A stretch of DNA of 64,000 bases from an uncultured Erythrobacter sp. (GTDB lineage: Bacteria; Pseudomonadota; Alphaproteobacteria; Sphingomonadales; Sphingomonadaceae). The notes under the pieces are model-generated. The model did not search any database and was not told the origin of the DNA. It saw only the letters and a program-made list of their open reading frames with translations. Of this stretch, positions 4,947 to 64,000 are shown in pieces; positions within the stretch are counted from its first letter, which is position 1; each line of letters opens with the position of its first letter. The position numbers and the translations under genes were made by a program. The stretch lies in contig NZ_CANMPJ010000001.1 of assembly GCF_947499705.1 (NCBI RefSeq), positions 2,329,501-2,393,500 of the forward strand. The letters run 5' to 3'.

Positions 4947-5324
4947 GCGCGATCAATAAGCGTTCACTAGCGCCGTTAAAAGGGGGCAGCCCGGACGCCC
5001 GCAAATGCGCTCTATCCTCCGCGCGTTTGATGCCACCAGCGTGGCTTGAGGCAAATGCACCTAACCTCCACACCGAGATTGCTTCGATGATCGATCAGCC
5101 ATTGGCCAGAGGTTCGTTTCAAAGCCAGACGCCAAATGGCTCTAGTGACATTCAGGAAAAGATGCGGTTGAAACGCCCGTTCTAGCCGTAGCAGCGGGCA
5201 TCGCTGGCCCAGTCCATAGTCGGTCAATATGCGCAACGAACATAGCGAAGAAGTGTCTTGCATCCCACTATGACACCGGTTACCAAACTTTGCGAAACGT
5301 CATCCAAAACGAAAGTGACATCTC
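4947..5324. other. Intergenic region, 378 bp, upstream of dhuI
   Basis: No convincing gene. A minus-strand frame of 83 codons (5012-5263) has a composition and sequence I cannot relate to any protein family and no good ribosome site. The only clear signal is the 15-base palindrome at 5271-5285 described separately. The region separates the unrelated AraC gene from the start of the polysaccharide locus. Confidence 0.6.
5271..5285 (+). promoter_or_regulatory. Predicted LacI-type operator TGACACCGGTTACCA
   Basis: The imperfect palindrome TGACACC/GGTTACCA is centred on CCGG, the hallmark CG-centred dyad of LacI-family operators. The identical 15-mer occurs at 19717 in the lacI-dctP divergent region, and a near copy at 51655. 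It ends 39 bp before the dhuI start, a position suited to repression. Confidence 0.7.
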
Positions 5325-5957
5325 ATGAAGATTGCATTGGTCGTCGAGAACAGTCAGGCCGGAAAGAGCGACATCATCCATGATGCGCTCACCTCAGTAG
5401 TAAAGCCTATGGGGCACGAGGTTTTCCATTACGGCATGTACACACCCGAGGACAAAGCGCACCTGACCTATCCGATGAATGGGTTGCTTTCCGGTGTTCT
5501 ACTCAATTCAGGCGCGGCCGATTTTGTCGTGACTGGATGCGGGACCGGCATGGGTTCGATGCTGGCATGTAATGCGATGCCTAACATCTTTTGCGGGCTC
5601 GTCATCGATCCGACAGACGCCTTTTTGTTCAGCCAGATAAACGCAGGCAATGCGATCGCCATGCCCTTTGCCAAGGGCTTTGGCTGGGCGGCGGAACTGA
5701 ACCTGCAGGACTGTTTTCAAAAGCTGTTCGAGACTGAGGCTGGCCTTGGCTACCCACGCGAGCGCGCCGAAGTCATGCGCACCAATCGCGGTGTTCTGGC
5801 CGACCTCAAAAAGGTCACCTGCCACGACATGCTTACCATCCTGAAGAACGCGGATCAGGAACTGTTGAAGACAGCCATATCGGGTGAACGGTTTGCCGAG
5901 TACTTCTATCCGAACTCGCAGGATGACGACATTAGCGCCTTCCTCAAGGACCTGTAA
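5325..5957 (+). CDS. dhuI: RpiB/LacA/LacB family isomerase, probable DhuI (4-deoxy-5-hexosulose uronate isomerase)
   Basis: 210 residues. The N-terminus (MKIALVVENSQAGKSDIIHD) and the glycine-rich VTGCGTGMGSMLACNAMPN segment mark the RpiB/LacAB sugar-phosphate isomerase fold. It is longer than RpiB (about 150 residues), as are the DhuI isomerases described from glycosaminoglycan degradation, which convert 4-deoxy-L-threo-5-hexosulose uronate to 3-deoxy-D-glycero-2,5-hexodiulosonate. The gene nine bases downstream encodes the next enzyme of that route (KduD/DhuD), which strongly favours DhuI over ribose-5-phosphate isomerase. A LacI-type operator sits just upstream. The window also carries the unrelated isomerase KduI for the same reaction. 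Confidence 0.75.
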   Translation: MKIALVVENSQAGKSDIIHDALTSVVKPMGHEVFHYGMYTPEDKAHLTYPMNGLLSGVLLNSGAADFVVTGCGTGMGSMLACNAMPNIFCGLVIDPTDAFLFSQINAGNAIAMPFAKGFGWAAELNLQDCFQKLFETEAGLGYPRERAEVMRTNRGVLADLKKVTCHDMLTILKNADQELLKTAISGERFAEYFYPNSQDDDISAFLKDL

Positions 5958-5966
5958 GAACACGAA

Positions 5967-6725
5967 ATGGCTAACTCAAATTTCGATCTTTCCGGCAAAA
6001 CCGCGATCGTTACCGGTGCGAACACCGGCATCGGACAGGGCATAGCCGTAGCTCTATCTGAGGCTGGTGCCGATATTGCGTTGGTTGCGCGAAGCGATGC
6101 CAGCGAAACAGCGTCAATGATCGCCGCCACCGGTCGCAAGGTGGCAATCATCGAAGCAGATCTTTCCACCACGGAGCCATGCCAGCGTATCATTTCCGAG
6201 ACCGTGTCTCAGTTTGGTCGTCTCGACATCCTGGTCAACAATGCCGGGATTATCCGGCGCAACGATGCCCTGGATTTTACCGAGGATGACTGGGATGCGG
6301 TGATGGACACCAATCTCAAGGTGCTGTTCTTCCTCAGTCAGGCTGCAGGGCGCCATATGGCAGAGCATGGCCGTGGCTCGATCATCAACATCGCCTCAAT
6401 GTTAACTTTCCAGGGTGGAATCAGAGTGGCGAGCTACACTGCGTCAAAGAGCGGTGTGGGCGGGCTGACTAAGCTGCTCGCCAACGAATGGGCGGGCAAA
6501 GGCATCACGGTAAACGCGATTGCGCCTGGTTACATCGCGACCAACAACACTGCTGCTCTTCAAGCAGACGAGGCCCGCAACCGGCAGATTCTCGAGCGTA
6601 TTCCCGCTGGACGCTGGGGCGAGCCATCAGATTTGGGCGGCGCGGCCGTATTCCTTGCCTCTGATGCCGCACGCTATGTGCAGGGTCATATCCTTGCTGT
6701 GGATGGCGGCTGGCTCGCGCGATGA
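5967..6725 (+). CDS. kduD: 2-deoxy-D-gluconate 3-dehydrogenase / 2-keto-3-deoxygluconate dehydrogenase (SDR)
   Basis: 252 residues, the usual KduD length. Classical short-chain dehydrogenase motifs are present: cofactor site TGANTGIGQG, NNAG, catalytic Ser in NIASMLTFQGG, and YTASK. It reduces 3-deoxy-D-glycero-2,5-hexodiulosonate to 2-keto-3-deoxy-D-gluconate in the cytoplasm. It lies nine bases behind dhuI and is surely cotranscribed, so it should share the LacI-type operator. Specificity within the SDR family is assigned from overall resemblance to KduD and this context. Confidence 0.85.
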   Translation: MANSNFDLSGKTAIVTGANTGIGQGIAVALSEAGADIALVARSDASETASMIAATGRKVAIIEADLSTTEPCQRIISETVSQFGRLDILVNNAGIIRRNDALDFTEDDWDAVMDTNLKVLFFLSQAAGRHMAEHGRGSIINIASMLTFQGGIRVASYTASKSGVGGLTKLLANEWAGKGITVNAIAPGYIATNNTAALQADEARNRQILERIPAGRWGEPSDLGGAAVFLASDAARYVQGHILAVDGGWLAR

Positions 6726-7097
6726 CATGATCTTCCTCGCACCCTGCCGAAATTAGAACGGCCGCCGCTATCGGCACGGTCGTATTCAAATGCGATAGCG
6801 AGCACGGATGCGGGAATAAAGAGACGCAGATCTCTTGACGATACAGATAGGGGTACTTTCTCCTTCGTTGTAGCGGATCTTCGAGCGGCAAAGGCAGCAC
6901 ACTCGGTTGCCTCGCTGGCGTTCGATGCATGCAACTAACAACGACTTCGATAGATTTACGCGTCCAGTATCATAGCTGCGCCGACCCTTCGCTCATTGTG
7001 CAGCATCTGGCAGTTTCTTGCGTGACAATTTGCGACAAGTCGTTGCTTGTATTTGCTGGTTACCCATGATTTTCTGAAGGTGAGCGAAGGGGGTCGC
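6726..7097. other. Intergenic region, 372 bp, between kduD and the DUF1800 gene
   Basis: I see no gene, RNA or clear terminator here. The stretch must hold the promoter of the DUF1800-DUF1501 pair, but neither of the two recurrent motifs of this locus is present. Confidence 0.5.
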
Positions 7098-8453
7098 ATG
7101 TCTGATCATTCATGGACTATTGCCGCGACGCGGTTTGGCTATGGCCATCGACCATCAGACCCGCTCAACGGCTCACCAAAAGCGTGGCTGACAAGGCAAG
7201 TCGAAGACTACGATCCGGATCCAGTTTTGCTTTTAGACCTGCCTGGTTCGGGACCAATTGCCCGGCAGTATGGCGCGTTCCGCCGTTTGCGCGGTGAGGA
7301 TGAAGAAACCAAACGCTCTGCCCGGCGCGAATTGCGCGGCCATTTGCGCGACGCGATCAGCGCACGGATTGAACTGGCGGTTCACACTTCGTCGCCATTT
7401 GCCGAGCGGCTGGTCCATTTCTGGGCCAACCATTTCGCGGTCTCCACTGAAAAACCAGGTGCAGGACCGCTCGCGGGCAGCTTTGAAGCGGAATCGATCC
7501 GGCCAAACATCTTCGGCCGTTTTTCCGACATGCTACGAGCCGCTGAAACCCATCCGGCCATGCTGATCTATCTGGATCAGGCGCGGTCCATCGGACCTAA
7601 TAGCCGCCGCGGACTGGCTGCCGCACAGCGCGGCAGGCGGCGAGCCGGCCTGAATGAGAACCTCGCGCGTGAGATACTGGAATTGCATACGCTAGGCGTG
7701 CGTTCCGGGTACACTCAGGCTGATGTAACGAGCTTCGCCAAAGCGCTGACAGGCCACACGGTTCCCGTCTTGCGGCGAAATCGCGGCGGCGGAAATCGCA
7801 CATATGCCTTTGTCGCACCGCTGCATGAGCCAGGGTCCAAAACTGTACTCGGGACAACCTACCGCGAGGATGGCGCGCGTGAGGCGTTGCGCATTCTGGA
7901 CGATCTGGCCGTCCATCCAGCAACAGCAAAGCATATCGCGACCAAGTTGGCGCGGCATTTCTCCGCCGATGATCCGCCGCCTTCGCTGGTGAGCAGACTG
8001 GAGCAGAGTTTTCTGAATACAGGCGGCGATTTGCAGGCGTTGACGCTGGCCCTGATAGAGGCACCAGAGGTCTGGCAGGCAGAACGCCAGAAATTCCTTA
8101 GTCCATGGGAGTGGAGCATTGCGTCGCTGCGTGCAATTGAGGCGGATCAATACGATCCATTTCGCGTCCGGCGCGTGATGATCCGCTTGGGACAGGACCT
8201 ATGGAAGCCCGGGTCTCCAGCAGGTTTTAGCGACAAGGCATCGGCCTGGGCTGCACCTGAATCGCTTCACCGGCGCGTGGAAGCGGCGCAGACGATCGGC
8301 AGGCGCGGTTCACGGCTGGATGCGAGAACCCTCGCCCCGCTGCTTTATCCCGGGGCATGGAGCGAGAATAGCGCAACGGCGGTTGCGCGAGCGGAAAGCC
8401 CGGAACAGGCAATGGCACTGATGTTGGCAAGCCCGGAGGCAATGTGGCGATGA
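7098..8453 (+). CDS. DUF1800 domain-containing protein
   Basis: 451 residues. The family pattern is clear: an N-terminal ATRFGYGHRP, then LVHFWANHFAVST, LIYLDQARSIGPN, NENLAREILELHTLGV and YTQADVTSFAKALTG. ATG 7098 is chosen over an earlier in-frame ATG at 7047 because GAAGGGGG lies just upstream and the family begins near ATRFGYG. No signal peptide is evident. It overlaps the DUF1501 gene by ATGA. DUF1800-DUF1501 pairs are widespread, commonly near exported carbohydrate-active proteins, and their biochemical role is not established. Confidence 0.9.
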   Translation: MSDHSWTIAATRFGYGHRPSDPLNGSPKAWLTRQVEDYDPDPVLLLDLPGSGPIARQYGAFRRLRGEDEETKRSARRELRGHLRDAISARIELAVHTSSPFAERLVHFWANHFAVSTEKPGAGPLAGSFEAESIRPNIFGRFSDMLRAAETHPAMLIYLDQARSIGPNSRRGLAAAQRGRRRAGLNENLAREILELHTLGVRSGYTQADVTSFAKALTGHTVPVLRRNRGGGNRTYAFVAPLHEPGSKTVLGTTYREDGAREALRILDDLAVHPATAKHIATKLARHFSADDPPPSLVSRLEQSFLNTGGDLQALTLALIEAPEVWQAERQKFLSPWEWSIASLRAIEADQYDPFRVRRVMIRLGQDLWKPGSPAGFSDKASAWAAPESLHRRVEAAQTIGRRGSRLDARTLAPLLYPGAWSENSATAVARAESPEQAMALMLASPEAMWR

Positions 8454-9574
8454 TCATAAACCGGCGAAACCTGTTAGGCGGATCGGCCGCCGCAATCGGC
8501 GCAACAATGCTGCCAAGAGTGGCATTTGCCGCTGGTGGCAGCGGGACCAAAAGACTGGTCTTCGTGCTGCAGCGCGGTGCCGCAGATGGTCTGGGTATCA
8601 TCGCACCTGTTGGCGATCCGGCCTATGCTGGTTTGCGCGGTGCGCTGGCAGAAGATTACGCGGATGCGCCCCTGATCGGCGGGCTTTTCGCACTCCATCC
8701 TGCACTTCAGCGCTCAGCAGAAATGTACGCAGGCGGCGAAATGATGGCGATCCACGCGGTTGCCTCCGCCTATCGCGACCGGTCGCACTTCGATGGACAG
8801 AATGTGCTCGAAAGCGGCGGAACCCGGCCATACGAACGCAAGGATGGCTGGCTCAACCGGCTCGTTGGCATGTTGCCGGATGCAAGCGCGTCGGGCCTCG
8901 CCATTTCACAAACCATCCCGCTGGCGCTGCAAGGTCCGCACAAGGCGGGTTCCTATGCCCCGTCGCGGCTGCCCGACGCCGCAGACGATTACATGCGCCG
9001 GATCGGCCAGCTCTATATGGGCGATGAGCGGCTCCATATGCTGTGGGAAGAGAGCATTGCGACCCGTGCCATAGCCGAAAGCATGGATGGCGGCGGCGAT
9101 ATGCGGCAGGCCGCCGATGTAGGGTCCCTCGCCGCGCGCATGCTTTCGAGCAAGGACGGTGCGCGCATAGCCATGATCGAAACCAGCGGCTGGGATACGC
9201 ATAACGGCCAGAGGCGGCGGCTGGCACGCGAGCTGGGCAAGCTCGATACGCTGATCGAAGCGCTGAAGATGGGCATGGGCGAACTATGGGATGATACGCT
9301 GGTGATCGTCGCCACAGAATTCGGCCGCACCGCTTCTGTCAACGGAACCAACGGGACCGATCACGGGACAGCTTCTGCGACGCTGCTTTACGGAGGTTCA
9401 CTGGGCGGCGGAGATGTGCTGGGCGATTGGCCCGGCCTAAAGCAAAGCGATCTTTACGAGGCGCGTGATCTCAGGCCGACAAATGCACTAGAGGACGTTA
9501 TTGCCTCAACCACTGCCAGCCACTTTGCACTTGATCCTGAGCTGACGAGGCGAACGCTTTTCCCCGGGCGTTAA
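8450..9574 (+). CDS. DUF1501 domain-containing protein with Tat signal
   Basis: 374 residues from ATG 8450, which overlaps the previous stop (ATGA). A twin-arginine signal (NRRNLLGGSAAAIGATMLP) predicts folded export to the periplasm. The body has the DUF1501 pattern (LVFVLQRGAADGLGIIAP; SHFDGQNVLESGG; ETSGWDTHNGQ; ATEFGRTASVNGTNGTDHGT), related to the alkaline phosphatase/sulfatase superfamily by the metal-binding THN and DHGT elements. Substrate unknown. Its relation to that superfamily and its place beside sulfatase genes make a role in sulfate ester or phosphate ester chemistry possible, but this is only inference. Confidence 0.9.
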   Translation: MIINRRNLLGGSAAAIGATMLPRVAFAAGGSGTKRLVFVLQRGAADGLGIIAPVGDPAYAGLRGALAEDYADAPLIGGLFALHPALQRSAEMYAGGEMMAIHAVASAYRDRSHFDGQNVLESGGTRPYERKDGWLNRLVGMLPDASASGLAISQTIPLALQGPHKAGSYAPSRLPDAADDYMRRIGQLYMGDERLHMLWEESIATRAIAESMDGGGDMRQAADVGSLAARMLSSKDGARIAMIETSGWDTHNGQRRRLARELGKLDTLIEALKMGMGELWDDTLVIVATEFGRTASVNGTNGTDHGTASATLLYGGSLGGGDVLGDWPGLKQSDLYEARDLRPTNALEDVIASTTASHFALDPELTRRTLFPGR

Positions 9575-9592: not shown

Positions 9593-10654
9593 TTATTCTG
9601 GCGCAGCGCTGTCATAGGCCAGTCTGAAACCGACATTTGACGCCCCTAATCCTGCATCGCGCCCCTGCCGGCTTTCAGGCCGATAACGCTGGCAATAATT
9701 GGGAGCGCAAAGGTAGCTTCCGCCTTTCATCACGCGGCTGGCGAAGCCGGGGTTAAGGGGATCGTATGCGGCGTTTTCGCTGGGGCCGCGCGGATTGTCG
9801 CGATCTGCCGGGTCATGGCCCGGCCGAAAGTAATCAGCGGTCACTTCCCATACATTGCCGACCATATCGTAGAGTCCGTATGCGTTGGGCTTGAAACAGC
9901 CGACCGGTGCAATGCCTTTAAACCCGTCACTCCCTTCGTTGACGACCGGGAACACCCCTTGCCAGCTGTTCGCGAGACGCGGATCGGGCTGCTCGGTATA
10001 TTTCTCCGCGCCTCCGCTGGCGGCATATTCCCACTCCGCCTCAGTCGGGATACGCCCGCCCTTCCACTCAGCGAAAGCGCGCATATCGTCCCATGCCAAA
10101 TGCACCACAGGCTGGCTGGGCTGCGCATCGGGACCATCGGGGCCATAGGGTTTTTGCCAGTTCGCTCCGGGGACATACTCCCACCAGTCGCCGTAATTGC
10201 GCGAAGGCCGCTCGGGCGGCGTGAAGACGGCGGACCCAGGCTCCAGCATGAAGGGCGGAATTTGTTCGACCGGGACACCGAATTGCGCCGGATCGACCGG
10301 TTTCTCGGCCACGCTTTTGTAGCCCGTTGCTTCAACGAATTCGGCGAACTGGCGGTTCGTCACCTCATGCGGATCGATCCAGAATCCGCCAACGGTTGTT
10401 TGCCGCTCAGGCCCCTCCTCCGCATAAACGACGTCGCTGCCCATGATGAACGTTCCGCCTTCGATGCGCACGCGCGCGCTGGAGGGCGCCTTGCATGTGG
10501 TCGCTGGGGCAAAGTCGCTCGCCGAAGTTGGCAGTGGCTGATCTGCTTCTTCGCCGTCCGATGGGCTGCAGGCGGTGAGACTTAGTGCCGTGACAGCCGC
10601 CACAAGACTGCATAGCCGCCACCTGTCATGTCTCGTTGGCTTTTGTACCATCAA
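9593..10654 (-). CDS. Formylglycine-generating enzyme (SUMF1/FGE family), predicted lipoprotein
   Basis: 353 residues. A lipoprotein signal ends at a lipobox (ALSLTACS). The FGE-sulfatase domain follows (RIEGGTFIMGSDVVY; FWIDPHEVTNRQFAEFV; GGRIPTEAEWEYAA; YDMVGNVWEVTADY). Near the C-terminus GGSYLCAPNYCQRYRP carries two cysteines (about 316 and 321) with the spacing of the redox pair of true FGE (SYMCHRSYCYRYR in human SUMF1). It should convert the active-site cysteine of type I sulfatases to formylglycine, using oxygen and copper. It is last in a minus operon with GH105 and a BNR-4 protein, next to four sulfatase genes. The lipoprotein signal places it outside the cytoplasm, which is notable for a maturation factor. 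Confidence 0.88.
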   Translation of the reverse strand: MMVQKPTRHDRWRLCSLVAAVTALSLTACSPSDGEEADQPLPTSASDFAPATTCKAPSSARVRIEGGTFIMGSDVVYAEEGPERQTTVGGFWIDPHEVTNRQFAEFVEATGYKSVAEKPVDPAQFGVPVEQIPPFMLEPGSAVFTPPERPSRNYGDWWEYVPGANWQKPYGPDGPDAQPSQPVVHLAWDDMRAFAEWKGGRIPTEAEWEYAASGGAEKYTEQPDPRLANSWQGVFPVVNEGSDGFKGIAPVGCFKPNAYGLYDMVGNVWEVTADYFRPGHDPADRDNPRGPSENAAYDPLNPGFASRVMKGGSYLCAPNYCQRYRPESRQGRDAGLGASNVGFRLAYDSAAPE

Positions 10655-10660: not shown

Positions 10661-12067
10661 CTAGCGCGGGCTAATCGTCCTTGTCACGGGTCCATCGTCA
10701 CCCAGCAGATACATCCGTCTTGCATCCGTGCCTCGCGCTCTTTCGGCAACGATCACACGCGCATCGGGATGTGCGTTGCGAATGAAGCTGCTGATCGCAA
10801 AACTTGCCTTATCACGCACCAGAAGCTCGCGAGTCCGCGCGAAGCTAGCCCCGCCGTCTTCGCTTTCCCACCAGGCGATCATAGCCTCGCCACCGCTTCT
10901 CTGAGATGCAAGCAGGAAGCGCACATCTTCGCGGCCGTCCACCACCAGATCGCCGTTGCCGACTGGCAGTCTGGTTGATTTCCCGCCGACCCACTCGCTG
11001 CCGCTCCAGCGATAATGGCGCATCTGTTTCGGGCCGCCCACTTTGGTCACACCCAGATCTTCTCCCATGGTGATACCGATATGGGGATGCCCCAGGTCAT
11101 CAAGCGTGACTGAAGCGTTGAACGACCACAGATCGCCAGATCTGGCGACCAGGGTCTTCTCCTCGGCAACTTCACGCGTCAGCGGCATGGGAAGCTGTTC
11201 GCCCTCGACATTCCGCCAGCTGCCATCGCCTGTGTCGAAGACCATGTAGAACAGATCCTGACGGTTGGCTGTGTGGCCGCGCGCATCGGGTGCTCCGGCT
11301 CCGTCCCAGCACAGATGGTAATCAAAGCTGACGATGATCTCATCACCCTCTCCTTTGGTCACATAGGGATACCAGCTGTCGACCGCCTGCAGATCGGTGC
11401 GGCGTTTATGCTTGAGGAAAGACACAGGCTCGCTGAAGGTGCGGCCGTTATCCGTTGATTTGTGATACACCCAATCGCTGCGATGCGCGCCGTGGCGATA
11501 GAACAGATAGATATCGCCATTATCCATTTTCACCACCTGATTGTAGGTGCCGAAAGGCGGGATCGTATCCAGTTCTTCCCATTCTGAAATGTCATACGGC
11601 CGCTTGGAAACGACATGCTTGTTCTCACCATAATGGTGATTGCCAAGCGGGTTTTTGCCCAGCTCCGGCGTGCCGCCATGCCCGCCGAAAAAGATATGGA
11701 CGTAGCCGGCATCGTCGATGATCAGAGTGGGCTTGCCGTGATTGTCGATCTTGCGAGTGGGATCCTTTCCCATCGCGCTCACGCCAGCTTTGAAAGGCCC
11801 GCTCCATTCGCCGGTGTTGTGATTGTACGACGCCACGTAGGGGTCTTCCAGCGGCCCTTGATAGCTCACATAGGTGATGCCGTCCTTATATTCTCCGGCT
11901 GGATGCTGGACCACGGCGACCGCATTGCCCAGCCCGTTATCGGCGAAATATTCGGTCTGGGATGTAGTCGCCGTCGCGGCGCTTTGCGGACCGTATGCAC
12001 CGGTGCATCCGGCGATCCCGGCCATGCAGGCCGTGAATGCTGCTGCGAAAAGGAGTGAGCGTTTCAT
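10661..12067 (-). CDS. BNR-4 seven-bladed propeller lipoprotein, candidate ulvan lyase (PL24/PL25-like)
   Basis: 468 residues from ATG 12067, where a lipoprotein signal starts (MKRSLLFAAAF, lipobox GIAGC at residue 21). The protein has repeated beta-propeller blades (HIFFGGHGG; IYLFYRHGAHRSD; YHKSTDNGRTFS; HIGITMGED) typical of BNR_4. Histidines H110 and H130 are separated by 20 positions (IDNH to FFGGH), the same spacing as in the two other BNR-4 proteins of the window and, from memory, as the catalytic His pair of PL25 ulvan lyase. Expected to cleave rhamnose-3-sulfate to uronate linkages by beta-elimination, giving the unsaturated uronate that GH105 removes. In an operon after GH105 and before FGE. 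A non-lyase sialidase-like role cannot be excluded. Confidence 0.7.
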   Translation of the reverse strand: MKRSLLFAAAFTACMAGIAGCTGAYGPQSAATATTSQTEYFADNGLGNAVAVVQHPAGEYKDGITYVSYQGPLEDPYVASYNHNTGEWSGPFKAGVSAMGKDPTRKIDNHGKPTLIIDDAGYVHIFFGGHGGTPELGKNPLGNHHYGENKHVVSKRPYDISEWEELDTIPPFGTYNQVVKMDNGDIYLFYRHGAHRSDWVYHKSTDNGRTFSEPVSFLKHKRRTDLQAVDSWYPYVTKGEGDEIIVSFDYHLCWDGAGAPDARGHTANRQDLFYMVFDTGDGSWRNVEGEQLPMPLTREVAEEKTLVARSGDLWSFNASVTLDDLGHPHIGITMGEDLGVTKVGGPKQMRHYRWSGSEWVGGKSTRLPVGNGDLVVDGREDVRFLLASQRSGGEAMIAWWESEDGGASFARTRELLVRDKASFAISSFIRNAHPDARVIVAERARGTDARRMYLLGDDGPVTRTISPR

Positions 12068-13299: not shown

Positions 13300-13462
13300 G
13301 GGGCAGCTCTCCACTTTTCTCTGTTTGGCGCATTATGCTGCGCCTTGGTTGAAGCAGCATCTTGCCACTCAATATCGCGATTGCAATCCAGAAATGTTCA
13401 TTTACGATCAAAATCGCGCATCAACAGGCATGTGCGAGGTGAATTGCGCAGGGAGACAGCAA

Positions 13463-36634: not shown

Positions 36635-36635
36635 C

Positions 36636-46334: not shown

Positions 46335-46345
46335 AATCATTTTCG
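46335..46345 (+). promoter_or_regulatory. AATCATTTTCG site in the rhaD-rhaK divergent region
   Basis: One base different from GATCATTTTCG found at 22607 and 49833. It is 35 bp from the rhaD start and 47 bp from the rhaK start; CAATCAAT is also present nearby (46352-46359). One site here could serve both rhamnose operons. Confidence 0.55.
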
Positions 46346-46391
46346 CTAATCGGCAATCAATAAGGTTCATTGAGGTTGTGGGGAGTGGGTT

Positions 46392-49736: not shown

Positions 49737-49832
49737 GCGCAAATCCTCTTTCGCAGTTCGGCACGGAATGCGATGCCAAACTTGTTCAGCGATCTCCCTG
49801 CATGCTGTTCAATTCAGTATCAAGCCGGAACT

Positions 49833-51608: not shown

Positions 51609-51654
51609 CATTCTCTCCCGAAATGGAACTAACACTGGCGGTATTGACCCGCGA

Positions 51655-56046: not shown

Positions 56047-58401
56047 TCAGGTCAACGTCACATGGCTGTCCTTCAGGTTCTCACTATCAGTGCCTGACAT
56101 GATGACGAACCGCCCCGGTTCAACCAGCAGCTGCCCCTCCCCGTCACGAAAGCCGAAGTCTTCCATTTCGAGAGAAAACTCGACCATTCGCTCTTCGCCG
56201 GGTTGAAGTGCCACTTTCTCAAAACCGCGCAGCTGTTTGACCGGCCGCGTCAGGCTGGCAATCTCGTCTCGTATGTAGAGCTGGACGACCTCCTGCCCCG
56301 CTCTTTCACCCGTATTGCGGACGGGAACATTGACCTTGAGCGTATCGCCGCGAGCCACCGAGCTCGCCTGAGGCTGCGGCGCGCCAAATTCAAAGCTCGT
56401 GTAGCTCAAGCCGTGCCCGAAAGGATAAAGCGGGGTGGAATCCGAGAATACGTAATTGCGGAATTTCCCGGTTGGCTTCTGGTAGTAGAACGCGGGAAGT
56501 TGTCCGACATTGCGGGCGATAGTGACCGGCAGCTTTCCGCTCGGATTGACATCGCCGAACAGGATGCTTGCGATGGCATGTCCGCCCTCTTCGCCCGGGT
56601 AAAAGGCATCGAGGATCGCCGGACACTTTTCTGCCAGAACCTGCGGTGAAAGCGGACGTCCGTGGATGAGAACCGCGACCGTTTTCTTGCCCAGCGTCAG
56701 CAGAGCTTCGGCGAGCTCGTTCTGCTCTCCGATAAGATCCAGACTGTCGCGGTCGCCGCGTGAATCTCCGGCGAAGTAAGCCTCTCTCGCTGTCGCCTCG
56801 TTTCCGCCCAGGCACATTACAATCGTATCGACATCGCCCGCTGCTGCGACCGCTTCGGCGATCAGCTTGCGGTTGAGCGCTGGATCGGCCCGCACGGTTT
56901 CATCCGCTGCATCGGTTTCGATCTCGTTCTGGCCTTCATCGCCGGCTGTGATCCGGCAACCCGGGGCGTACTCAGTTTCAAACCCAGCGCGCTGTCCATA
57001 GGCCTTGATCCCATCGAGCATGCTGACGCCGATAAAGGGCTTGGGCGAATACCCGCCAAGATGCACTGACGCCGCGTTGGGCCCGACCACCAGCACCTTT
57101 TTGGTGGTGGCCTTTTCAAGCGGGAGAAGCGCGTCATCGTTCTTGAGCAAAATGACCGATTCTTCAGCCGCCTTACGGGCCAGTGCGCGGTGCTCCTTGC
57201 TTCGTGCCAGGCTGGCCGCCTTGGCAGGTTCGGCCCACGGCAGATCGAACAGCCCGCATTTGAACTTGGCCGCCAACACACGCTCGGCAGCGCGGCGGAC
57301 ATAGCTTTCTTCAAGCTGACCATCACGGACAAGCTGCGGCAGCATCAGGTAGACCCCGTTATTGGCGAGTTCCAGATCAACGCCTGCCTTCAACCCCATG
57401 ATCGCAGCTTCGGCTTCGTCTTTGGCTACACCGTGCAGGCTGTGGATGCGGCGGATATCGTCCCAGTCGGAAACGACGTAACCGTCAAAGCCCCAGTCAT
57501 CGCGAAGCAGGTCTGACAGAAGCGCGGTATCCGCGTGCGCAGGCACTCCGTCGATTTCGCCATGCGATGCCATCAGGCCGACGGAACCGGACTCTTTAAT
57601 CGCCGCCCGGAATGGCGGCAGCACCACATTCTGCATCTCGGCCGGGCCGATATGTGATGGCGCAAAATTGCGACCGCCGATCCCCTGCCCATAACCGGCG
57701 AAGTGTTTCACGCTGGTGGCGATGCGATCCGGCGGCAGGTATTCGGCGCGCGTCCCTTGCAGACCTGTCACAATCGCACGCGCAGAGACTGACACCAGAT
57801 AGGGATCTTCGCCCCATGTCTCTTCAGCCCGACCCCAGCGCGGATCGGTGCAAATGTCGATATTGGGGGAGAAGCACGCTTGCGCACCGCGCGACCGAGC
57901 TTCTTTCGCAGTGGCCGCAAAAATCTGCTCCACCAGTTCGGGATTGAACGCGCAGGCCATTGCCATCGCTTGCGGATATTGAGTCGCACCGTCTGCCAGT
58001 AACCCGGCCAGACATTCCTCGAAGATGAAGGCCGGAATGCCAAACCGGCTGCGGCTGACGACTTCGCGTTGCAGCGCCATCACTGCGCGGGCGTTGTCTT
58101 CTGCGCCGGCTTCAAGGCTGGCCGAATAGACGCCTCCGATACCGTGCTGGAAATATGAGAAGTCTGCCTCGAACGTCTTTGCATCAGCCATCACGTCAGC
58201 TGCGCGCGGGCAATTGAGCTGGGCGCCGACTTCATCCAGCGTCATCAGCGCGACGAGCGCCTTGGCACGGCGTGCGGGTGACAGGGACTTGTCGCGATAA
58301 TCATCATTGGTGCGAGCGTGCAGGACATTGCCGAAGCCCCCGGCTGCGGCAAAGCCTAGTCCGCCAATGCCAGCCAGAGTTGTTCGCCGGTCGATTTTCA
58401 T
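56047..58401 (-). CDS. GH3 beta-glycosidase with Tat-like signal
   Basis: 784 residues from ATG 58401; an upstream in-frame start at 58449 adds no signal-like sequence. A twin-arginine motif (DRRTTLAGIGGLGFAAAG) suggests Tat export. The GH3 barrel shows FSPNIDICTDPRWGRAEE, ATSVKHFAGYGQGIGG and the nucleophile Asp in GYVVSDWDDIRR. GH3_C (LLKNDDALLPLEK; CLGGNEATAREAYFAGDS; AILDAFYPGEEGGHAIASI) and a C-terminal Fn3-like domain (QEVVQLYIRDEIASL) follow. Probably beta-xylosidase or beta-glucosidase; with ulvan as substrate beta-xylosidase is likely. Last gene of the GH78-sulfatase-GH3 operon. Confidence 0.92.
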   Translation of the reverse strand: MKIDRRTTLAGIGGLGFAAAGGFGNVLHARTNDDYRDKSLSPARRAKALVALMTLDEVGAQLNCPRAADVMADAKTFEADFSYFQHGIGGVYSASLEAGAEDNARAVMALQREVVSRSRFGIPAFIFEECLAGLLADGATQYPQAMAMACAFNPELVEQIFAATAKEARSRGAQACFSPNIDICTDPRWGRAEETWGEDPYLVSVSARAIVTGLQGTRAEYLPPDRIATSVKHFAGYGQGIGGRNFAPSHIGPAEMQNVVLPPFRAAIKESGSVGLMASHGEIDGVPAHADTALLSDLLRDDWGFDGYVVSDWDDIRRIHSLHGVAKDEAEAAIMGLKAGVDLELANNGVYLMLPQLVRDGQLEESYVRRAAERVLAAKFKCGLFDLPWAEPAKAASLARSKEHRALARKAAEESVILLKNDDALLPLEKATTKKVLVVGPNAASVHLGGYSPKPFIGVSMLDGIKAYGQRAGFETEYAPGCRITAGDEGQNEIETDAADETVRADPALNRKLIAEAVAAAGDVDTIVMCLGGNEATAREAYFAGDSRGDRDSLDLIGEQNELAEALLTLGKKTVAVLIHGRPLSPQVLAEKCPAILDAFYPGEEGGHAIASILFGDVNPSGKLPVTIARNVGQLPAFYYQKPTGKFRNYVFSDSTPLYPFGHGLSYTSFEFGAPQPQASSVARGDTLKVNVPVRNTGERAGQEVVQLYIRDEIASLTRPVKQLRGFEKVALQPGEERMVEFSLEMEDFGFRDGEGQLLVEPGRFVIMSGTDSENLKDSHVTLT

Positions 58402-58449
58402 ATTGTTCGTTTTCCCTTTTCCAGGTCGTTCGGAACCGCACGGCTCCAC

Positions 58450-59772
58450 TTAATTCGGCCACCATTCTTCGATCTCGGCGCGCAGCGACGAAATCTGATC
58501 TGCATGCTGCGGAGCGCCCGCAAGGTTTGTCTTCTCGTCAGGATCGGACGCCAGATTGTAGAATTCCGGACGCCCGCCATCGAAATCATTGAGGATCAGT
58601 TTCCAGTCGCCCTTTCTGGCCCAGCGATGCGTCACGTTGACGGTGGGATCATCCAGATCGACCGAGGTGTGGTAGTAAATCTCACCAAAGACCGTTCGCG
58701 GGTTCAGGCTGCTGCGCTGCTCCAGGAAGGGGCGTAGGTTTCGCCCCGGCAGTTCTTCGGCTTGGGGCAGCCCCGCCAGCGCCAGCGTGGTTGGAAAGAA
58801 ATCGATCGAGCTGACCAGATCATCATGGCGACCCGGCTTTATCCGATCAGGCCAGCGCACAAAGACAGGGGTGCGCACGCCGCCTTCATATGGGGAGCTC
58901 TTGCTGCGGGGATCAAAGCGGATGGTCCGGTTCTGAAGGTCGCGAAAACTCTCGCCATCGCGATTGGGCAACCAGCCATTGTCGACGATGAACATGATGA
59001 CCGTGTTTTCTGCTTTGCCGTTCTTTTCGAGCAGCTCCATCAGCTGACCAACGGTATCGTCAAGCCACGATATGTTGGCGTAGTAACCAATCTCGCGTCG
59101 CCCCAGCCCTTTACCGCGAAACGGCTCCTTATACGCTTCCACAGCATCAAACGGCGCATGGGGCAGATACGGGGCGAACCAGAGGAAGAACGGGTCTTCC
59201 CCGACGCCGCCCAGGAACGTGTCGATCGGCTCCATCGTCTTTCGGCCGATCCTCAGGCCCGCGTCACCATGACGCGTCCCTTTGGTCATTCCGTCGGCAA
59301 ACCCACCATTCGTGTAGATGCCTTCCCAGAACTTACCCGTCTGCATGCTGCGATAGCCCGCATTCTTCAGCGCCATGGGCATAGGCTTTTGCATCTGGAG
59401 AAAGCGGAAGGTGGCCGAATGCGGGATGCCATCGGGCGGATCGTTGAAACAGATCCCGTGGTCGAAAGCATATTTGCCGGTGATCAGCGTCGCGAGCGAA
59501 GCGCGGCAAAGGCTTGTCGGCACGTAGCCATTTGGAAAAACAGCTGATTCTGAAGCGAGCTTGTCCAGATGCGGAGTGCGAACAAGATCATGCCCCATAA
59601 AGCCAAAATCGGAATAGGCCTGATCATCGGCGATTATCCAGACGATATTGGGCGGCTCTTCTTGCTGGGCGAACTCTGCCGGAGCCGTCTTTTCGGATTG
59701 GAGCGCGCAGCTGGCCAGAAGCGCAACGAAGGCAAGCGCTATGAGGAAACCCGGTTTGATTTGCCCGAACAC
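58450..59772 (-). CDS. Type I sulfatase with variant active-site motif (CRASL), lipoprotein
   Basis: 440 residues from GTG 59772, chosen because TGAGGAG lies six to seven bases upstream and it directly follows the GH78 stop; an ATG at 59817 inside GH78 is the alternative. Lipobox ALLASC. Metal-binding IIADDQAYSDFGFMG, then TSLCRASLATLITGKY (Cys about 89) where other sulfatases have CxPSR; KFWEGIYTNGG, FLWFAPYLPHAPFD and FIVDNGWLPNRD complete the fold. The motif lacks the Pro and Arg of the formylglycine consensus, although sulfatases with LCRxSLAT are known. Probably active on sulfated rhamnose with the GH78 in its operon. Confidence 0.88.
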   Translation of the reverse strand: MFGQIKPGFLIALAFVALLASCALQSEKTAPAEFAQQEEPPNIVWIIADDQAYSDFGFMGHDLVRTPHLDKLASESAVFPNGYVPTSLCRASLATLITGKYAFDHGICFNDPPDGIPHSATFRFLQMQKPMPMALKNAGYRSMQTGKFWEGIYTNGGFADGMTKGTRHGDAGLRIGRKTMEPIDTFLGGVGEDPFFLWFAPYLPHAPFDAVEAYKEPFRGKGLGRREIGYYANISWLDDTVGQLMELLEKNGKAENTVIMFIVDNGWLPNRDGESFRDLQNRTIRFDPRSKSSPYEGGVRTPVFVRWPDRIKPGRHDDLVSSIDFFPTTLALAGLPQAEELPGRNLRPFLEQRSSLNPRTVFGEIYYHTSVDLDDPTVNVTHRWARKGDWKLILNDFDGGRPEFYNLASDPDEKTNLAGAPQHADQISSLRAEIEEWWPN

Positions 59773-59782
59773 AGCGCTCTCC

Positions 59783-62617
59783 TCAATTTCCAATGACTTC
59801 ACGGTCGCCAGCCGCATTCAGACGAAACCGATGTTTGCCCGGCTTGATGAGGCGAGAGCCTCCGTTACGCGTGTCCAATGCTGACGTGTTCTGCGGCACC
59901 TCGACATCCCAGATGATGTCATCGCCTTCGCGCTTCCATGCGCTGCGAATGGTCCCATATCCCGTCTCAAGCGAAACCTTGGTTTCGTCGAGTCCTGCTG
60001 GAAATTTCGGGTCCAGAAAGAACCTTTTGTAGCCCGGAGCATCGGGGTCCGGACTGATGCCGCCAAGGCCAGAATAGAACCATGCATCATAGCCGCCTTT
60101 GAACGGGTGGTTCAGCGACCTTCCAGGCTCGGCTCCATCGCCGGGCACAAAACCGGTGATGTTCTCCCACAAGGTCGTGCCGTCCAGTGTTTCGAACAGA
60201 TAGGAATATCCCGGCGGCCCTTCGGCCTTGAACACGCCGAACGCTGTGTCGTCATATCCCGCATCGGCCAGAGCCGGATATAGCCAAGTCTGCCCCAACG
60301 CCCCGACAGAGGCATGGCCGTCCCATTTTTCGCGGACGTCAGTGTTCATGGCCGCAGCAATCGATTGTCTCTTTTGCACAGGAGCAATGCCGAATTGCAG
60401 TGCCATCGCATTGGCAGTCTGGCTGCCGTAACCAACACTATCGGTCTGGTAATAGGCGCGGTTAAACGCGGCGCTGACATCGTTGAAACGCTGCCCGAAC
60501 GCCTTCGCTTCGTTGTCCCGTCCAAGCTGTGCGGCCATATCGGACATTTGCTGGAACACCCGCGCCATCAGCGCTGTCGCGGTCAGATCACCCGGCGTGC
60601 TGAACGATGCGCAGCGCCCAAGCGGGCGTTCCATGCCAAGTTCCGGCAAAGCGTCGCACCAGTCGCCGTAATAATGGAACGGGTCGGTGACGCGGTCATC
60701 GTCCATCGCCTTTTCAACATAGGCGACATAATCCAGCAGGCTGTCATATTGCCGCTCAATCACCGACACGTCGCCGGTATGGAGGTAGTGTTCCCAAGTC
60801 AGGAAGACCTCGGCTGCCGCCCAATCGACTTTGCCCGAATGCGTCCGCCTGCCCGGTACGATGGCCGGTGAGATGAAGTCGGTAGTCCTGAAATCACCGA
60901 GATACTTTTCGAGAAATGGACCCATGGCGAAATTGTAGCTCGCCGTTTGGATGATCGCGTGGGCATCACCGGTCCAACCGTTGCGCTCGCGGATCGGGCA
61001 GTCGGACAGGACGGAAACCATATTTGTCTCGAACGACCAGAGAGCGGTTTCATGGATACGATTGAGCAGCGGGTCTGACGAAGAGAAATGCCCGATGCGC
61101 TCGATATCGGTCCGCGTCAGGTGTGCCGTGATGGCGTCCAGCGGTGGAGGTCCATCGATCCCGCTGATTTCCATGTAGCGAAAGCCATGCCAGGTGAATG
61201 ATGGCGACCACGGGGTCTCATCCTTGCCGTCCGAGACATAGGCATCAACCTGCTTGGTACGCGGGGCGCCGCCGCCGGATTTCATTCCTACCCTGCCATC
61301 TCCATCGGCCCATTCGCCGTATCGCAGCAGCACGGTCTGCCCTTCGGAAAGACCCAGGCGCGACATGTCGATAGTCGGCAATCCGGTGAAATTCTGTCCA
61401 AGATCGATGGTGTAGATACCCGGCTCTGGATTGAGCACGGCTTTCGGCGTCACTTCGGTGACGCGGCGAACCGGGGGCATTTCCGCTGCCACCAGCGCCT
61501 GTGTCGGGCTTTCGTCCAGCACCGCCGCGCTGCGCCAGCCGCTGCCTTGTTCGAGGTCGCTGTCATTCCATGCTACGACATTCTCGCGTGCATCGAAAAA
61601 CTCGCCCGAATAGACCCCGTTCTTCAGGATTGGCGACGGATGAGCGAGCCAGCTGCCATCGCTGACAATCGTCTGGCGCGCGCCGTCTTGATAAGTGATT
61701 TCCAACTGAGCAATCGCGGCGGGTTCACCGTAGAACAGCTTGTCCATCCCGAAGGCAGTGCGCTCTCCATAAAAGCCGTTGCCCAGATGAACGCCCAGAA
61801 CGTGTTCGCCCTGACCGATCCGATCCGTCACGTCATCGATATCGTAATAGATCCGCTTGTCGAAATCGGTCTGCGCCGGGTTCAGGATGCGGTCGCCGAT
61901 CTTTTCGCCATTCAGGAAGAACTCGGAATACCCCGCTGAGGTGGAATACAGCAGCGCCGACTTGATCGGCTTCGTGACAGCGAACGACTTGCGGAAATAG
62001 GTCGCGGGCCGCACGTCGCGCAGGCGGCGTTTTGTGTCCGCTACGGTCTCGGCATTCTTGAACTGAGGGTCTGCCGCTGTCGCTTCGAGCCACCGCGCCA
62101 TGCCTGCCGTCTCTTCCGCAGCCGGAAAGATCGGGCTGGTGATCCATCCAGCGCGCCAATCGGTAGGCTCCAGCAATGCCATCCGCCAGCTTTGCACTTC
62201 GCTCCATGGGCCTGGCCGATCCTCACCTTCGGCCCAAACCCGCACTCGCCAGAAGGCTTGCCCGCGCGACTGCAATGCTTCGCCGCGATACGGTATCGCA
62301 ACGGAGCGCCCATCTTCGATCCGGCCGCTCGACCATAGATCCGCAGCGCCGGAATTCAGCAGATGTGCAGACGACGCGACTTCAATCTCAAAGGCGGTCT
62401 GGCTATCGACAGCGCTGCGCCAGGACAGGCGAGGAACTTCGCGTCCCACTCCAACGGGATTGGTCTGGCCCTCGACTTTCAGGAAAAAAGGAGCCGCGCT
62501 AGCAAAGCCGCTCTCAGACCGGGGAACAGCGCTCTGTTGCTCAAACGGAACCGAGCAAGCCATGGCTGAAAAGCATGCGGTGATCACCGCAGCGCTGCGC
62601 AACATTCGGCCAATCAC
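59783..62617 (-). CDS. GH78 alpha-L-rhamnosidase, predicted lipoprotein
   Basis: 944 residues from GTG 62617 (GAGGGG seven bases upstream); the signal ends in lipobox FSAMAC. N-terminal beta domains (FFLKVEGQTNPVGVG; PTDWRAGWITSPIFP; LNPAQTDFDKRIYYDIDDV) precede the (alpha/alpha)6 domain, where SDCPIRERNGWTGDAHA carries the GH78 catalytic acid region. GQTVLLRYGEWADGDGR and HGFRYMEISG are also typical. Removes alpha-L-rhamnose from oligosaccharides. First gene of the operon with a sulfatase and GH3; a GATCATTTC site is 53 bp upstream. Confidence 0.94.
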   Translation of the reverse strand: MIGRMLRSAAVITACFSAMACSVPFEQQSAVPRSESGFASAAPFFLKVEGQTNPVGVGREVPRLSWRSAVDSQTAFEIEVASSAHLLNSGAADLWSSGRIEDGRSVAIPYRGEALQSRGQAFWRVRVWAEGEDRPGPWSEVQSWRMALLEPTDWRAGWITSPIFPAAEETAGMARWLEATAADPQFKNAETVADTKRRLRDVRPATYFRKSFAVTKPIKSALLYSTSAGYSEFFLNGEKIGDRILNPAQTDFDKRIYYDIDDVTDRIGQGEHVLGVHLGNGFYGERTAFGMDKLFYGEPAAIAQLEITYQDGARQTIVSDGSWLAHPSPILKNGVYSGEFFDARENVVAWNDSDLEQGSGWRSAAVLDESPTQALVAAEMPPVRRVTEVTPKAVLNPEPGIYTIDLGQNFTGLPTIDMSRLGLSEGQTVLLRYGEWADGDGRVGMKSGGGAPRTKQVDAYVSDGKDETPWSPSFTWHGFRYMEISGIDGPPPLDAITAHLTRTDIERIGHFSSSDPLLNRIHETALWSFETNMVSVLSDCPIRERNGWTGDAHAIIQTASYNFAMGPFLEKYLGDFRTTDFISPAIVPGRRTHSGKVDWAAAEVFLTWEHYLHTGDVSVIERQYDSLLDYVAYVEKAMDDDRVTDPFHYYGDWCDALPELGMERPLGRCASFSTPGDLTATALMARVFQQMSDMAAQLGRDNEAKAFGQRFNDVSAAFNRAYYQTDSVGYGSQTANAMALQFGIAPVQKRQSIAAAMNTDVREKWDGHASVGALGQTWLYPALADAGYDDTAFGVFKAEGPPGYSYLFETLDGTTLWENITGFVPGDGAEPGRSLNHPFKGGYDAWFYSGLGGISPDPDAPGYKRFFLDPKFPAGLDETKVSLETGYGTIRSAWKREGDDIIWDVEVPQNTSALDTRNGGSRLIKPGKHRFRLNAAGDREVIGN

Positions 62618-62669
62618 CAGCCACCCCTCAATCCATAACGATCTTTTATAATCACATATACGCAAATTA

Positions 62670-62679
62670 GATCATTTCC
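62670..62679 (+). promoter_or_regulatory. GATCATTTCC site upstream of the GH78 operon
   Basis: Eight leading bases match GATCATTT of the motif at 22607 and 49833. It lies 53 bp before the GH78 start within an AT-rich stretch (62641-62680) that contrasts with the surrounding coding DNA. Confidence 0.4.
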
Positions 62680-62775
62680 AAGTGAGGACTTGATCTTCGA
62701 TCTTTTCGAGCAGGCGTGAATGCAGGCCGAAGCCGTGGGGCGGGTCAGGTCACAGGGATCCCAAAGGATTGGTCG

Positions 62776-64000
62776 TTAACAGGGGGCAAGCCGCTCGGGA
62801 TCAACTTCGGCGATGGGCGAAGGCTGATACCCATAGCGAACCGCTTTCGCCTTGAATGGCGATGCCGCTTCGATAGGCACCACATAGAGCCGCGTCTCAC
62901 CATTCGGGCCGCCATAGCCAATCGATGCGCCAATGGTTGCAGAGGTGAGCACGGTTTTGCCATCCGTGCGCAGGCAGGCTTCCACTATCTCCGTCTGCGG
63001 CTGCACACCGCCCGGCCAGATACGGGCGACCAGATTGCGCTCTGGAATAAGGCCCATATCCCCGCTTGCTGCGATCCATTCTTCCAACCGTTCAGACAGG
63101 CGGCGCTTGATAGCTGCGAAGCGGGGATCATCCGCGAGATTGCGCACTTCATGCGGGTCAGCCTGAGTGTCGAACAGCATCTCACGCGGGGCAATCCCTT
63201 CGAGGTAGGAAGCCTGCAATGCTGACAGACGACCTTCAGTCTGAAGGCGCCGCATTTCGCGCATGATCGGGTTGACGTTCTGATAGCCGAGCGAGGGGAT
63301 CACCGGCGTGTCGCTGAAATAGCGGATATAATGCCAGCGTTCCTCGCGCACACCCCGAAACCGCTGTGGCACCTCGTCGAACCTGTCACCGGCCATATAG
63401 ATGGCCTCAGGTGCGGGATCGTCAAACAGTAGGCGTCCCTGGATATAATCTGGAATAGCCACGCCCGCCCAATCCAGAATGGTCGGGGCGAGATCGATGA
63501 AGCTGACGAGATCACCGCGCTGCGTCCCCGCTCCGAAACCGTCGGGAAAGCGCACCAGCAGAGGGACATGGGTTCCGCTGTCGAAGATGGTGCGTTTGTG
63601 GCGCGGCAATCCGTCACCGTGGTCGGTCGTGAAAATGATGATGCTGTCGGCGAAGCGACCCTCGGCCTCAAGACGGTCGAGCAGTTCACCGACCTGGCCA
63701 TCCATCACTCTGATATTGTCATAGAACCGCGCAAGGTTGGCGCGAACCGCCGGGGTGTCGGGCCAGTATGGCGGGATCTCGACGCGCGCCGGATCGGTCA
63801 GCGGAAAGTTCTTACCCGCATCGATCTGTGCGTTGAGCGGATTGCGCCGGGACACGACCGGATGCAGCGCTGGATCGGTGTCAGGGGGCCAGGTTCGCCC
63901 CTCATGCGTGACTTCGTGGTTGATCATCGCAAAAAACGGCTGGCCGGGTGCACGCTCGTTCCAATCCGCGCCCTTGGTGTTGCGATCCCACACGGTGAAG
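62776..64000 (-). CDS. Type I sulfatase, C-terminal part, cut by the right window edge
   Basis: At least 407 residues; the frame stays open to position 64000, so the N-terminus with signal and formylglycine motif lies outside. Visible sulfatase elements: FFAMINHEVTHEGR, IIFTTDHGDGLPRHK, VPLLVRFPDGFGAG and SFIDLAPTILDWAG. TTDHGDGLPRHKRTIFDSG resembles heparan N-sulfatase-like S1_8 enzymes. The last 90 residues form a beta domain (TVLTSATIGASIGYGG). Its stop is 158 bp upstream of the GH78 start on the same strand. The sulfated group it attacks is unknown. Confidence 0.85.
   Translation of the reverse strand, partial: FTVWDRNTKGADWNERAPGQPFFAMINHEVTHEGRTWPPDTDPALHPVVSRRNPLNAQIDAGKNFPLTDPARVEIPPYWPDTPAVRANLARFYDNIRVMDGQVGELLDRLEAEGRFADSIIIFTTDHGDGLPRHKRTIFDSGTHVPLLVRFPDGFGAGTQRGDLVSFIDLAPTILDWAGVAIPDYIQGRLLFDDPAPEAIYMAGDRFDEVPQRFRGVREERWHYIRYFSDTPVIPSLGYQNVNPIMREMRRLQTEGRLSALQASYLEGIAPREMLFDTQADPHEVRNLADDPRFAAIKRRLSERLEEWIAASGDMGLIPERNLVARIWPGGVQPQTEIVEACLRTDGKTVLTSATIGASIGYGGPNGETRLYVVPIEAASPFKAKAVRYGYQPSPIAEVDPERLAPC

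Follow-up and report, generated by a model that had tools for sequence, protein, structure and literature searches.

Degradation of ulvan, a sulfated sea-lettuce polysaccharide, has so far been characterised in Bacteroidota and Gammaproteobacteria. The point of reference here is pAlt76 (NZ_LR136959.1), a plasmid of the sea bacterium Alteromonas sp. 76-1, which is reported to grow on ulvan (PMC6431674). We analysed a stretch of 64,000 nucleotides from an uncultured Erythrobacter sp. (assembly GCF_947499705.1, contig NZ_CANMPJ010000001.1; G000:C1:2329501-2393500), referred to below as the window, in a 3.67-Mb genome (3,667,510 bases). It contains a chromosomal alphaproteobacterial locus that, judging by homology, probably carries the breakdown of ulvan all the way from the polymer into central metabolism, through lyase action, removal of sulfate and exo-cleavage. 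Pfam scans of the window and its flank delimit 43 genes over about 70.3 kb, from position 5,325 to window-equivalent position 75,668. An ulvan lyase, GH105 enzymes, sulfatases, TonB-dependent receptors and genes for rhamnose and uronate catabolism occur together in the locus, which makes up 1.9% of the genome, yet holds all seven genomic sulfatases and all three genomic BNR_4 proteins. Gene content, conserved catalytic residues, synteny and this exclusive location of the sulfatases were observed directly. An earlier reading made from the letters alone (the sequence-only reading) had placed an ulvan locus at 5271 to 64000; this observation is borne out, and its right end proved too short by about 11.7 kb.

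Homologues of 33 of the 43 locus genes were found on pAlt76 at E<=1e-6, compared with one of 16 neighbours outside the locus (a TonB receptor); in this count, some sulfatases match one shared plasmid gene. Because so many genes have relatives on a plasmid of an ulvan-growing sea bacterium, the locus likely digests ulvan. Together with a PL25 protein that keeps its catalytic residues, this supports the substrate proposed by the sequence-only reading. Identities to pAlt76 proteins are 56% for PL25, 58% for the GMC oxidoreductase, 53% for KduI, 45% for propeller 2 (RS20240), 43% for propeller 3, 57% for rhaI, 41% for rhaD-SDR, 35% for the FGGY kinase and 38% for lldD. Weak matches were obtained for TonB receptor 1 (26%), sulfatase f (25%) and the DUF5060 protein (over 28% of its length). 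Common to both systems are PL25, PL42-like and GH145-like propellers, GH88/105, GH78 and GH106-type enzymes and sulfatases; TonB receptors, TRAP and NCS1-type transporters, DeoR and a GMC pair; and KduI/KduD/RpiB and RhaI/RhaD/kinase/LldD. The ten genes without a sequence match encode DUF1800, DUF1501, FGE, GH5-type, heparinase-fold, LacI, DUF4861, GH43, MhpD-like and GH3 proteins, although the pAlt76 annotation lists a GH43 and a DUF4861 of its own.

The gene at 10661-12067 (minus strand) is assigned to PL25, and the predicted lipoprotein that it encodes is expected to cut ulvan. It resembles PLSV_3936 (5UAM) with an E value of 2.3e-188 and 630 bits over 439 residues. Residues H110/H130/Y175/R191 of this 468-aa protein, whose start codon was moved by inference, correspond to the PLSV_3936 tetrad His123/His143/Tyr188/Arg204, which is named alongside His85/His105/Tyr150/Arg166 of FoRham1 in PMC8377490. 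The two His residues are 20 apart, and Tyr and Arg 16 apart, in PLSV_3936, FoRham1 and all three locus propellers. A fourth BNR_4 gene lies 5-7 kb from PL25 in three relatives (G041, G121 and G179); the two copies that were checked (L116 and L117) are PL25-like, at 62% and 56%.

All three BNR_4 propellers had been taken for ulvan lyases in the sequence-only reading. Our comparisons divide them into one PL25, one nearest to PL42 and one nearest to GH145. Propeller 2 (29525-30985, minus), a predicted PL42-like lyase, is closest to FoRham1 (E 2.9e-34), and its H127/H147/Y194/R210 match the FoRham1 tetrad. FoRham1 is described as having no more than trace activity on ulvan (PMC8377490). Propeller 3 (36636-38006, minus), a predicted GH145-type lyase, is nearest to the GH145 structures of BT3686 and BACINT_00347 (5muk, 7.2e-38; 5mum, 6.4e-38). 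These enzymes are reported to have an anterior lyase site, where mutants of His90, Tyr143 and Arg333 are inactive, and a posterior hydrolase site with His48 (PMC8406133). Propeller 3 carries H104/H124/Y159/R175 at the anterior His90/His110/Tyr143 and neutralising Arg positions, each kept in 119 of the best 120 of 948 homologues. At the posterior His48 site stands R63, and the same 120 homologues have R in 73, K in 20, Q in 12, I in 4, H in 3 and E in 3. Since the lyase His and Tyr residues are kept and Arg occupies the His48 site, we predict that propeller 3 is a lyase and not a rhamnosidase; its identification as a gum-arabic hydrolase was rejected because His48 is absent.

The fourth predicted lyase of the locus, which could also be an epimerase, is a heparinase-fold protein (16427-18364, minus) that falls just under the Pfam cut-off for the heparinase II/III-like family. 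Its structure, predicted from 43 sequences with a pLDDT of 93, matches the folds of GAGase VII and II, human dermatan sulfate epimerase 1 and several alginate lyases and, lower, the PL40 enzyme Uly1040; a shared fold cannot tell lyase from epimerase. We take GAGase II and VII to be members of PL35; they and the human epimerase share 17-21% identity with the locus protein. At least 99 homologues were found, and identity reaches 38% or more for at least 90 of them; they come from records of Erythrobacteraceae, Paraglaciecola and Verrucomicrobiota. All of 34 close homologues keep N195, H196, Y245, Y248, D299 and H406. When checked against the PL40-type motif (Asn-Trp, Tyr, Asp, His-x-His), the protein has Asn-His and not Asn-Trp, with Tyr, Asp and His conserved and the second His kept in 27 of the 34; nine distant homologues, in contrast, have Asn-Trp. 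The invariant positions appear to fit the Asn/Tyr/Asp/His machinery described for PL40, where an occasional change of Trp to His is noted (PMC12915356). Seven homologues outside Erythrobacteraceae-type records may share a contig with a propeller-3 homologue, as equal lengths of the longest contig hint, one such pair being numbered GYB33_00635 and 00655, and another homologue (P0181, 1066 aa) also has sulfatase domains.

Four S1 sulfatases were recognised in the window by Pfam, as the sequence-only reading had stated, a number that understates the seven of the locus. Sulfatase a (13298-14884, plus; CGPSR) has a twin-arginine motif near its N-terminus, b (25341-26825, plus; CSPSR) is a predicted lipoprotein, c lies at 58450-59817 (minus), and d (62776-64000, minus; CSPSR) continues to window-equivalent 64455. 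Beyond the window, sulfatases e, f and g follow, and e also has a 3-keto-disaccharide hydrolase domain. Cys is present at the modified position in all seven (PF00884); sulfatase c has CRASL where C-x-P/A-x-R would be expected. The best PDB matches of c and f are broad S1 matches that do not fix a subfamily. Sulfatase b is 51% identical to RS20460, which adjoins the plasmid PL25, and each of b, c and d has a sulfatase match at most about 5 kb from PL25 on pAlt76. The plasmid homologue of propeller 3 lies one gene from PL25, the gene between them being the sulfatase-b homologue. Maturation of sulfatases by formylglycine-generating enzyme (FGE) involves a pair of Cys residues. The genome encodes two FGE-family proteins, and the one inside the locus (9593-10654, minus), a predicted lipoprotein with a lipobox, has both Cys in its YLCAPNYC motif. 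Among eight FGE homologues of related loci, all have both Cys and seven have a lipobox by the pattern used, with LQGC in the eighth. Based on these features, we predict that the locus FGE matures sulfatases after export.

Much of the locus is syntenic in five relatives. At 40% identity or more and in place, 40 of the 43 genes were found in G292, 39 in G179, 36 in G041, 30 in G359, whose contig ends beside kduD, and 29 in G121, which was read to 80 kb. Not counted were second-GH106 queries that landed on the first GH106 (G179 and G121) and a 42% GH3 match outside the cluster (G121); the GH43 match in G121 is partial. The order from PL25 to GH78 is conserved in G041, G292 and G179. The closest PL25 relatives come from uncultured Erythrobacter (85-86%) and, as a partial sequence, an uncultured Sphingomonadaceae (89%), followed by Pontixanthobacter rizhaonensis (73%) and Aurantiacibacter marinus (68%), in keeping with a source most likely in the Erythrobacteraceae (Sphingomonadales). 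By record title, the 79 loci listed out of 103 that matched for PL25 relatives fall in Alphaproteobacteria (14), Gammaproteobacteria (41), Bacteroidota (23) and Verrucomicrobiota (1). Alteromonas sp. LOR and Glaciecola sp. KUL10 are among them, the latter reportedly an ulvan user. Among these 79, a propeller-3 homologue lies within 10 kb of PL25 in 12 of the 41 gammaproteobacterial loci and in none of the Bacteroidota (0/23), alphaproteobacterial (0/14) or verrucomicrobial (0/1) ones; in the source genome and its relatives some 25 kb separate the two genes, a distance outside the span of this count. Two more distant alphaproteobacterial loci have PL25 beside GH3, DUF5060, rha genes and FGE (L074) or beside TRAP, DUF4861, kduI, GH43, GH106, beta-helix and TonB receptor genes (L017).

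BNR_4 proteins occur in 21 of 397 genomes of the family. Close forms of propeller 2 (>=70%) and propeller 3 (>=74%) were found in the same seven genomes, four in the source genus and one in each of three further genera. PL25 is present in six of these, where the three propeller genes span no more than about 31 kb; the remaining one, a fragmented metagenome-assembled genome, has a third, unclassified BNR_4 match. The other 14 genomes comprise seven with one GH145-type gene at 40-44%, five with one at 26-34% and two with one that matches none of the three. In a FastTree analysis of 31 propeller-3-type sequences plus an outgroup, from which L101 (a fragment) and L108 and L109 (no match) were left out, the 19 PL25-linked sequences group in a clade that excludes the other 12 (SH-like support 0.81). 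Tree and genome distribution together lend moderate support to the view that the ulvan link belongs to the propeller-3 clade and not to the whole family.

For uptake, the locus encodes TonB-dependent receptors 1 (38095-41490, minus) and 2 (52875-55943, plus; 57% to RS20410), TRAP transporter proteins DctP, DctQ and DctM (19787-22571, plus) with homologues on pAlt76, and an inner-membrane permease (22685-24331, plus; 58% to RS20160). The permease has no Pfam match and is called NCS1-type from the names of its homologues; a PDB search with it gave nothing useful. A LacI regulator (18560-19609, minus) and a DeoR regulator (48939-49742, minus; 36% to the pAlt76 DeoR) are also present. The sequence-only reading had proposed that uptake by TonB receptors only under LacI/DeoR control would be a different organisation, a view contradicted by the TRAP transporter and permease and by pAlt76, which has TonB, TRAP, a 'nucleoside transporter' and DeoR as well. 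No SusD-family protein, as expected in a polysaccharide utilisation locus (PUL) of the SusCD type, is among the Pfam matches of the scanned locus open reading frames. The sequence-only reading had also omitted the TRAP genes, the permease and the GH5-type, DUF5060, DUF4861 and beta-helix proteins; the other families that it listed (three BNR_4, heparinase-like, two GH105, GH78, GH106, GH43, GH3, FGE and two TonB receptors) were all recovered by Pfam.

Uronate catabolism is represented by an RpiB/DUF3666 isomerase, presumably of the DhuI type, with KduD (5325-6725, plus; 51% and 50% to pAlt76), by KduI (26853-27689, minus) and, outside the locus, by an Eda-type aldolase at C1:2144600. To this extent the pathway that had been proposed holds; its gap is the 2-keto-3-deoxygluconate (KDG) kinase. 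Rhamnose catabolism had been called complete. The genes rhaI and rhaD-SDR (minus) and those for the FGGY kinase and lldD (plus) lie at 42875-48946, a set that would convert rhamnose to dihydroxyacetone phosphate (DHAP) and pyruvate. The NCBIfam cut-offs are passed by kduD, kduI, rhaD-SDR and lldD and narrowly missed by rhaI (626 of 647 bits). No rhamnulokinase match in NCBIfam was obtained for the kinase, whose role therefore depends on context.

Two GH105 unsaturated uronyl hydrolases (GH88 in Pfam) lie at 12091-13314 (minus; 42% to RS20450) and 41669-42847 (minus). Pfam further identified a GH5-type enzyme (14892-16361), GH43 (28125-29495), alpha-L-rhamnosidases of GH106 (33440-36634) and GH78 (59783-62665; 44% to RS20400), GH3 (56047-58449), a DUF5060 protein (30982-33438) and a right-handed beta-helix protein related to GH28 (49920-51635; 46% to RS20535), all on the minus strand; the NCBIfam BT3328-family match of the last is far below cut-off. 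On the plus strand are a predicted DUF4861 lipoprotein (24334-25341, its start moved by inference within the open reading frame 23908-25341), a DUF1800 and DUF1501 pair (7047-9574) and an MhpD/FAH-like protein (51789-52595), which was assigned by eye, has no Pfam match and is syntenic in four of the five relatives. The DUF1800/DUF1501 pair adjoins FGE and PL25 in Erythrobacteraceae loci and is present in four of the five relatives, the fifth contig ending before it.

Beyond the window, the remainder of sulfatase d and sulfatases e to g are accompanied by a GMC oxidoreductase with a gluconate-2-dehydrogenase subunit 3 and by a second GH106, past which come a cyclophilin-type protein and RelA/SpoT. 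RelA (G000:C1:2408771) begins about 4 kb past the right end of the locus, and in the same-genus G041 and G121 it is more than 200 kb from the locus, which points to a move of the locus or to a chromosomal rearrangement. With this difference, and with no copy of the left AMP-ligase above 55% identity in 30 other genomes of the genus, an empty insertion site was not shown. The left neighbours (beta-lactamase-fold, NmrA and AraC proteins) have no match in the stretches of the five relatives; the beta-lactamase-fold protein (PF00144) lies at window 1098-2465. Some 14-16 kb to the left of the window, another TonB receptor (L006, 3267-6323) shares 45% identity with RS20410, the homologue of TonB receptor 2.

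Taken together, these observations suggest a pathway whose substrate, order of steps, compartments and regulation we infer from homology. The lipoprotein PL25 would cut Rha3S-uronate bonds, where Rha3S is rhamnose 3-sulfate, and the unsaturated oligosaccharides would be imported by the TonB receptors. Periplasmic S1 sulfatases, matured by the locus FGE, would take off sulfate, and further beta-elimination at Rha-uronate ends, by the GH145-type and PL42-type propellers and the heparinase-fold enzyme, would make the oligosaccharides shorter. Each lyase would leave an unsaturated uronate for the two GH105 enzymes to remove, GH78 and GH106 would release rhamnose, and GH43 and GH3 xylose or uronate. 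The TRAP transporter and the NCS1-type permease would bring uronates and small products inward. RhaI, the kinase and the RhaD-SDR fusion would turn rhamnose into DHAP and lactate, and LldD would convert the lactate to pyruvate; unsaturated uronate would be converted to KDG by the RpiB-type and KduI isomerases and KduD and then pass to Eda. LacI and DeoR are likely the local regulators. We tentatively extend this scheme to a second, exolytic beta-elimination tier in alpha- and gammaproteobacterial ulvan loci, formed by the GH145-type and PL42-type propellers and, in some, by the new heparinase-fold family, which would be either an oligo-ulvan lyase or a GlcA/IdoA C5-epimerase, in that case the first bacterial one with ulvan as substrate, a proposal that we consider possible, with the odds somewhat against it.

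Several observations count against this reading of the locus. PL25 is its only recognised ulvan lyase, no PL24 having been recognised, and the heparinase-fold gene is not indispensable, since two of the five relatives (G121 and G179) lack it in their stretches. FoRham1 Arg331, described as touching O2 and O3 of Rha (PMC8377490), is aligned to Thr in a gapped, weak stretch of propeller 2, and Arg333, essential in BT3686, is aligned in a weak stretch to E353 of propeller 3, which is not conserved. These unmatched residues speak against a plain PL42/GH145 assignment; they could fit Rha carrying a 3-sulfate, yet are not evidence for it. Five PfkB matches were found in the genome, and the three compared with the pAlt76 sugar kinase (best full-length identity 24%) yielded no assignable KDG kinase. 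The DUF5060 protein has no PDB match at E<=1, and its role could not be assigned. No shared operator emerged from palindromes in intergenic stretches or from half-sites in 19 stretches compared with shuffles. Moreover, the seven family genomes with a 40-44% GH145-type gene have no other BNR_4 and so no PL25, and five 20-kb neighbourhoods of such genes contain no sulfatase or PL25 match, with GH105 in one; the GH145-type family is therefore not exclusive to ulvan.

With this in mind, we considered other targets. The locus might act on a different sulfated polymer of rhamnose and uronate, for example rhamnan sulfate or an exopolysaccharide from microalgae or bacteria, with ulvan a mere relative of it. 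PL25 specificity for the Rha3S-uronate bond leaves the rest of the polymer unfixed, two propellers lie outside the recognised ulvan families, and the ten genes without a pAlt76 match (GH5-type, GH3 and heparinase-fold among them) would be accommodated. However, nine characterised PL25 enzymes are listed as ulvan lyases (PMC13193363), and sulfatases b, c and d have their plasmid counterparts close to PL25; we therefore regard a different polymer as unlikely. Arabinogalactan protein or gum-arabic-like glycans with Rha-alpha-1,4-GlcA caps, some of them sulfated, are a very improbable target. The PL42 and GH145 relatives do act on such caps (PMC8377490, PMC8406133), GH105 could act next, and the seven PL25-free family genomes with propeller-3 relatives would be in keeping with such a role. 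Against this stand PL25 itself, the seven sulfatases, the absence from propeller 3 of the His48 needed for gum-arabic hydrolysis and the separation of the PL25-linked propeller-3 clade; and among the open reading frames scanned, no galactanase or arabinofuranosidase Pfam match was found besides the one GH43.

A further alternative concerns the unity of the locus, which might join a left ulvan unit (5.3-38 kb) to a right unit for a different rhamnose-rich glycan. Sulfatases f and g were found in none of the five relatives' stretches and the GMC pair was not found in three, two stretches in each case not covering that end. Nevertheless, TonB receptor 2, the beta-helix protein, GH78, sulfatases c and d and the GMC enzyme have pAlt76 homologues, and the order from PL25 to GH78 is conserved in three relatives; we hold a composite origin to be improbable. 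A single locus for ulvan remains the explanation that we favour.

In comparison with known systems, the locus is chromosomal, whereas pAlt76 is a plasmid, for which three PL24 genes are reported (PMC6431674). PUL H of Formosa agariphila, a member of Bacteroidota, is similar by description in its lyase, sulfatase, GH105, GH78 and GH3 steps (PMC8511951), and differs in its PL40 lyase P10 (PMC12915356) and dehydratase P29 (PL37 profile). Pseudoalteromonas marina PUA1001, likened to the locus by its description (PMC13050008), shares PL25, GH105/88, GH106, GH43, GH78, TonB, TRAP and rhamnose genes, but has PL24, PL40, MFS transporters and two sulfatases compared with seven here. FoRham1 (PL42) and the Bacteroides GH145 lyases are related in sequence to propellers 2 and 3, with the same tetrad spacings of 20 and 16 (the GH145 Arg spacing being inferred from the propeller-3 family). 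However, they are known for gum arabic and wine arabinogalactan protein, whereas propellers 2 and 3 sit in an ulvan-type locus; propeller 3 also lacks the GH145 His48, and the Rha-side Arg is unmatched in a weak alignment. Seaweeds including Ulva have Erythrobacter among the dominant genera of their phycosphere, according to a report that also counts ulvan PULs (PMC10233909), and green-algal carbohydrate-active enzymes have been counted in Sphingomonadaceae (PMC9676036). Among the publications examined from the open literature on ulvan with Alphaproteobacteria, sphingomonads and Erythrobacteraceae genera, no described alphaproteobacterial ulvan locus was found. Beside pAlt76 the locus thus appears ordinary in kind, and what would be new is its host class and its lyase set: a chromosomal alphaproteobacterial version with four predicted lyases, including a narrow heparinase-fold family nearest to glycosaminoglycan lyases and dermatan sulfate epimerase. 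These added cutting enzymes resemble, by prediction, ones known from the breakdown of gum arabic and animal sugars, and if a second lyase tier exists, propeller types so far associated with gum arabic and wine glycans would act in ulvan loci.

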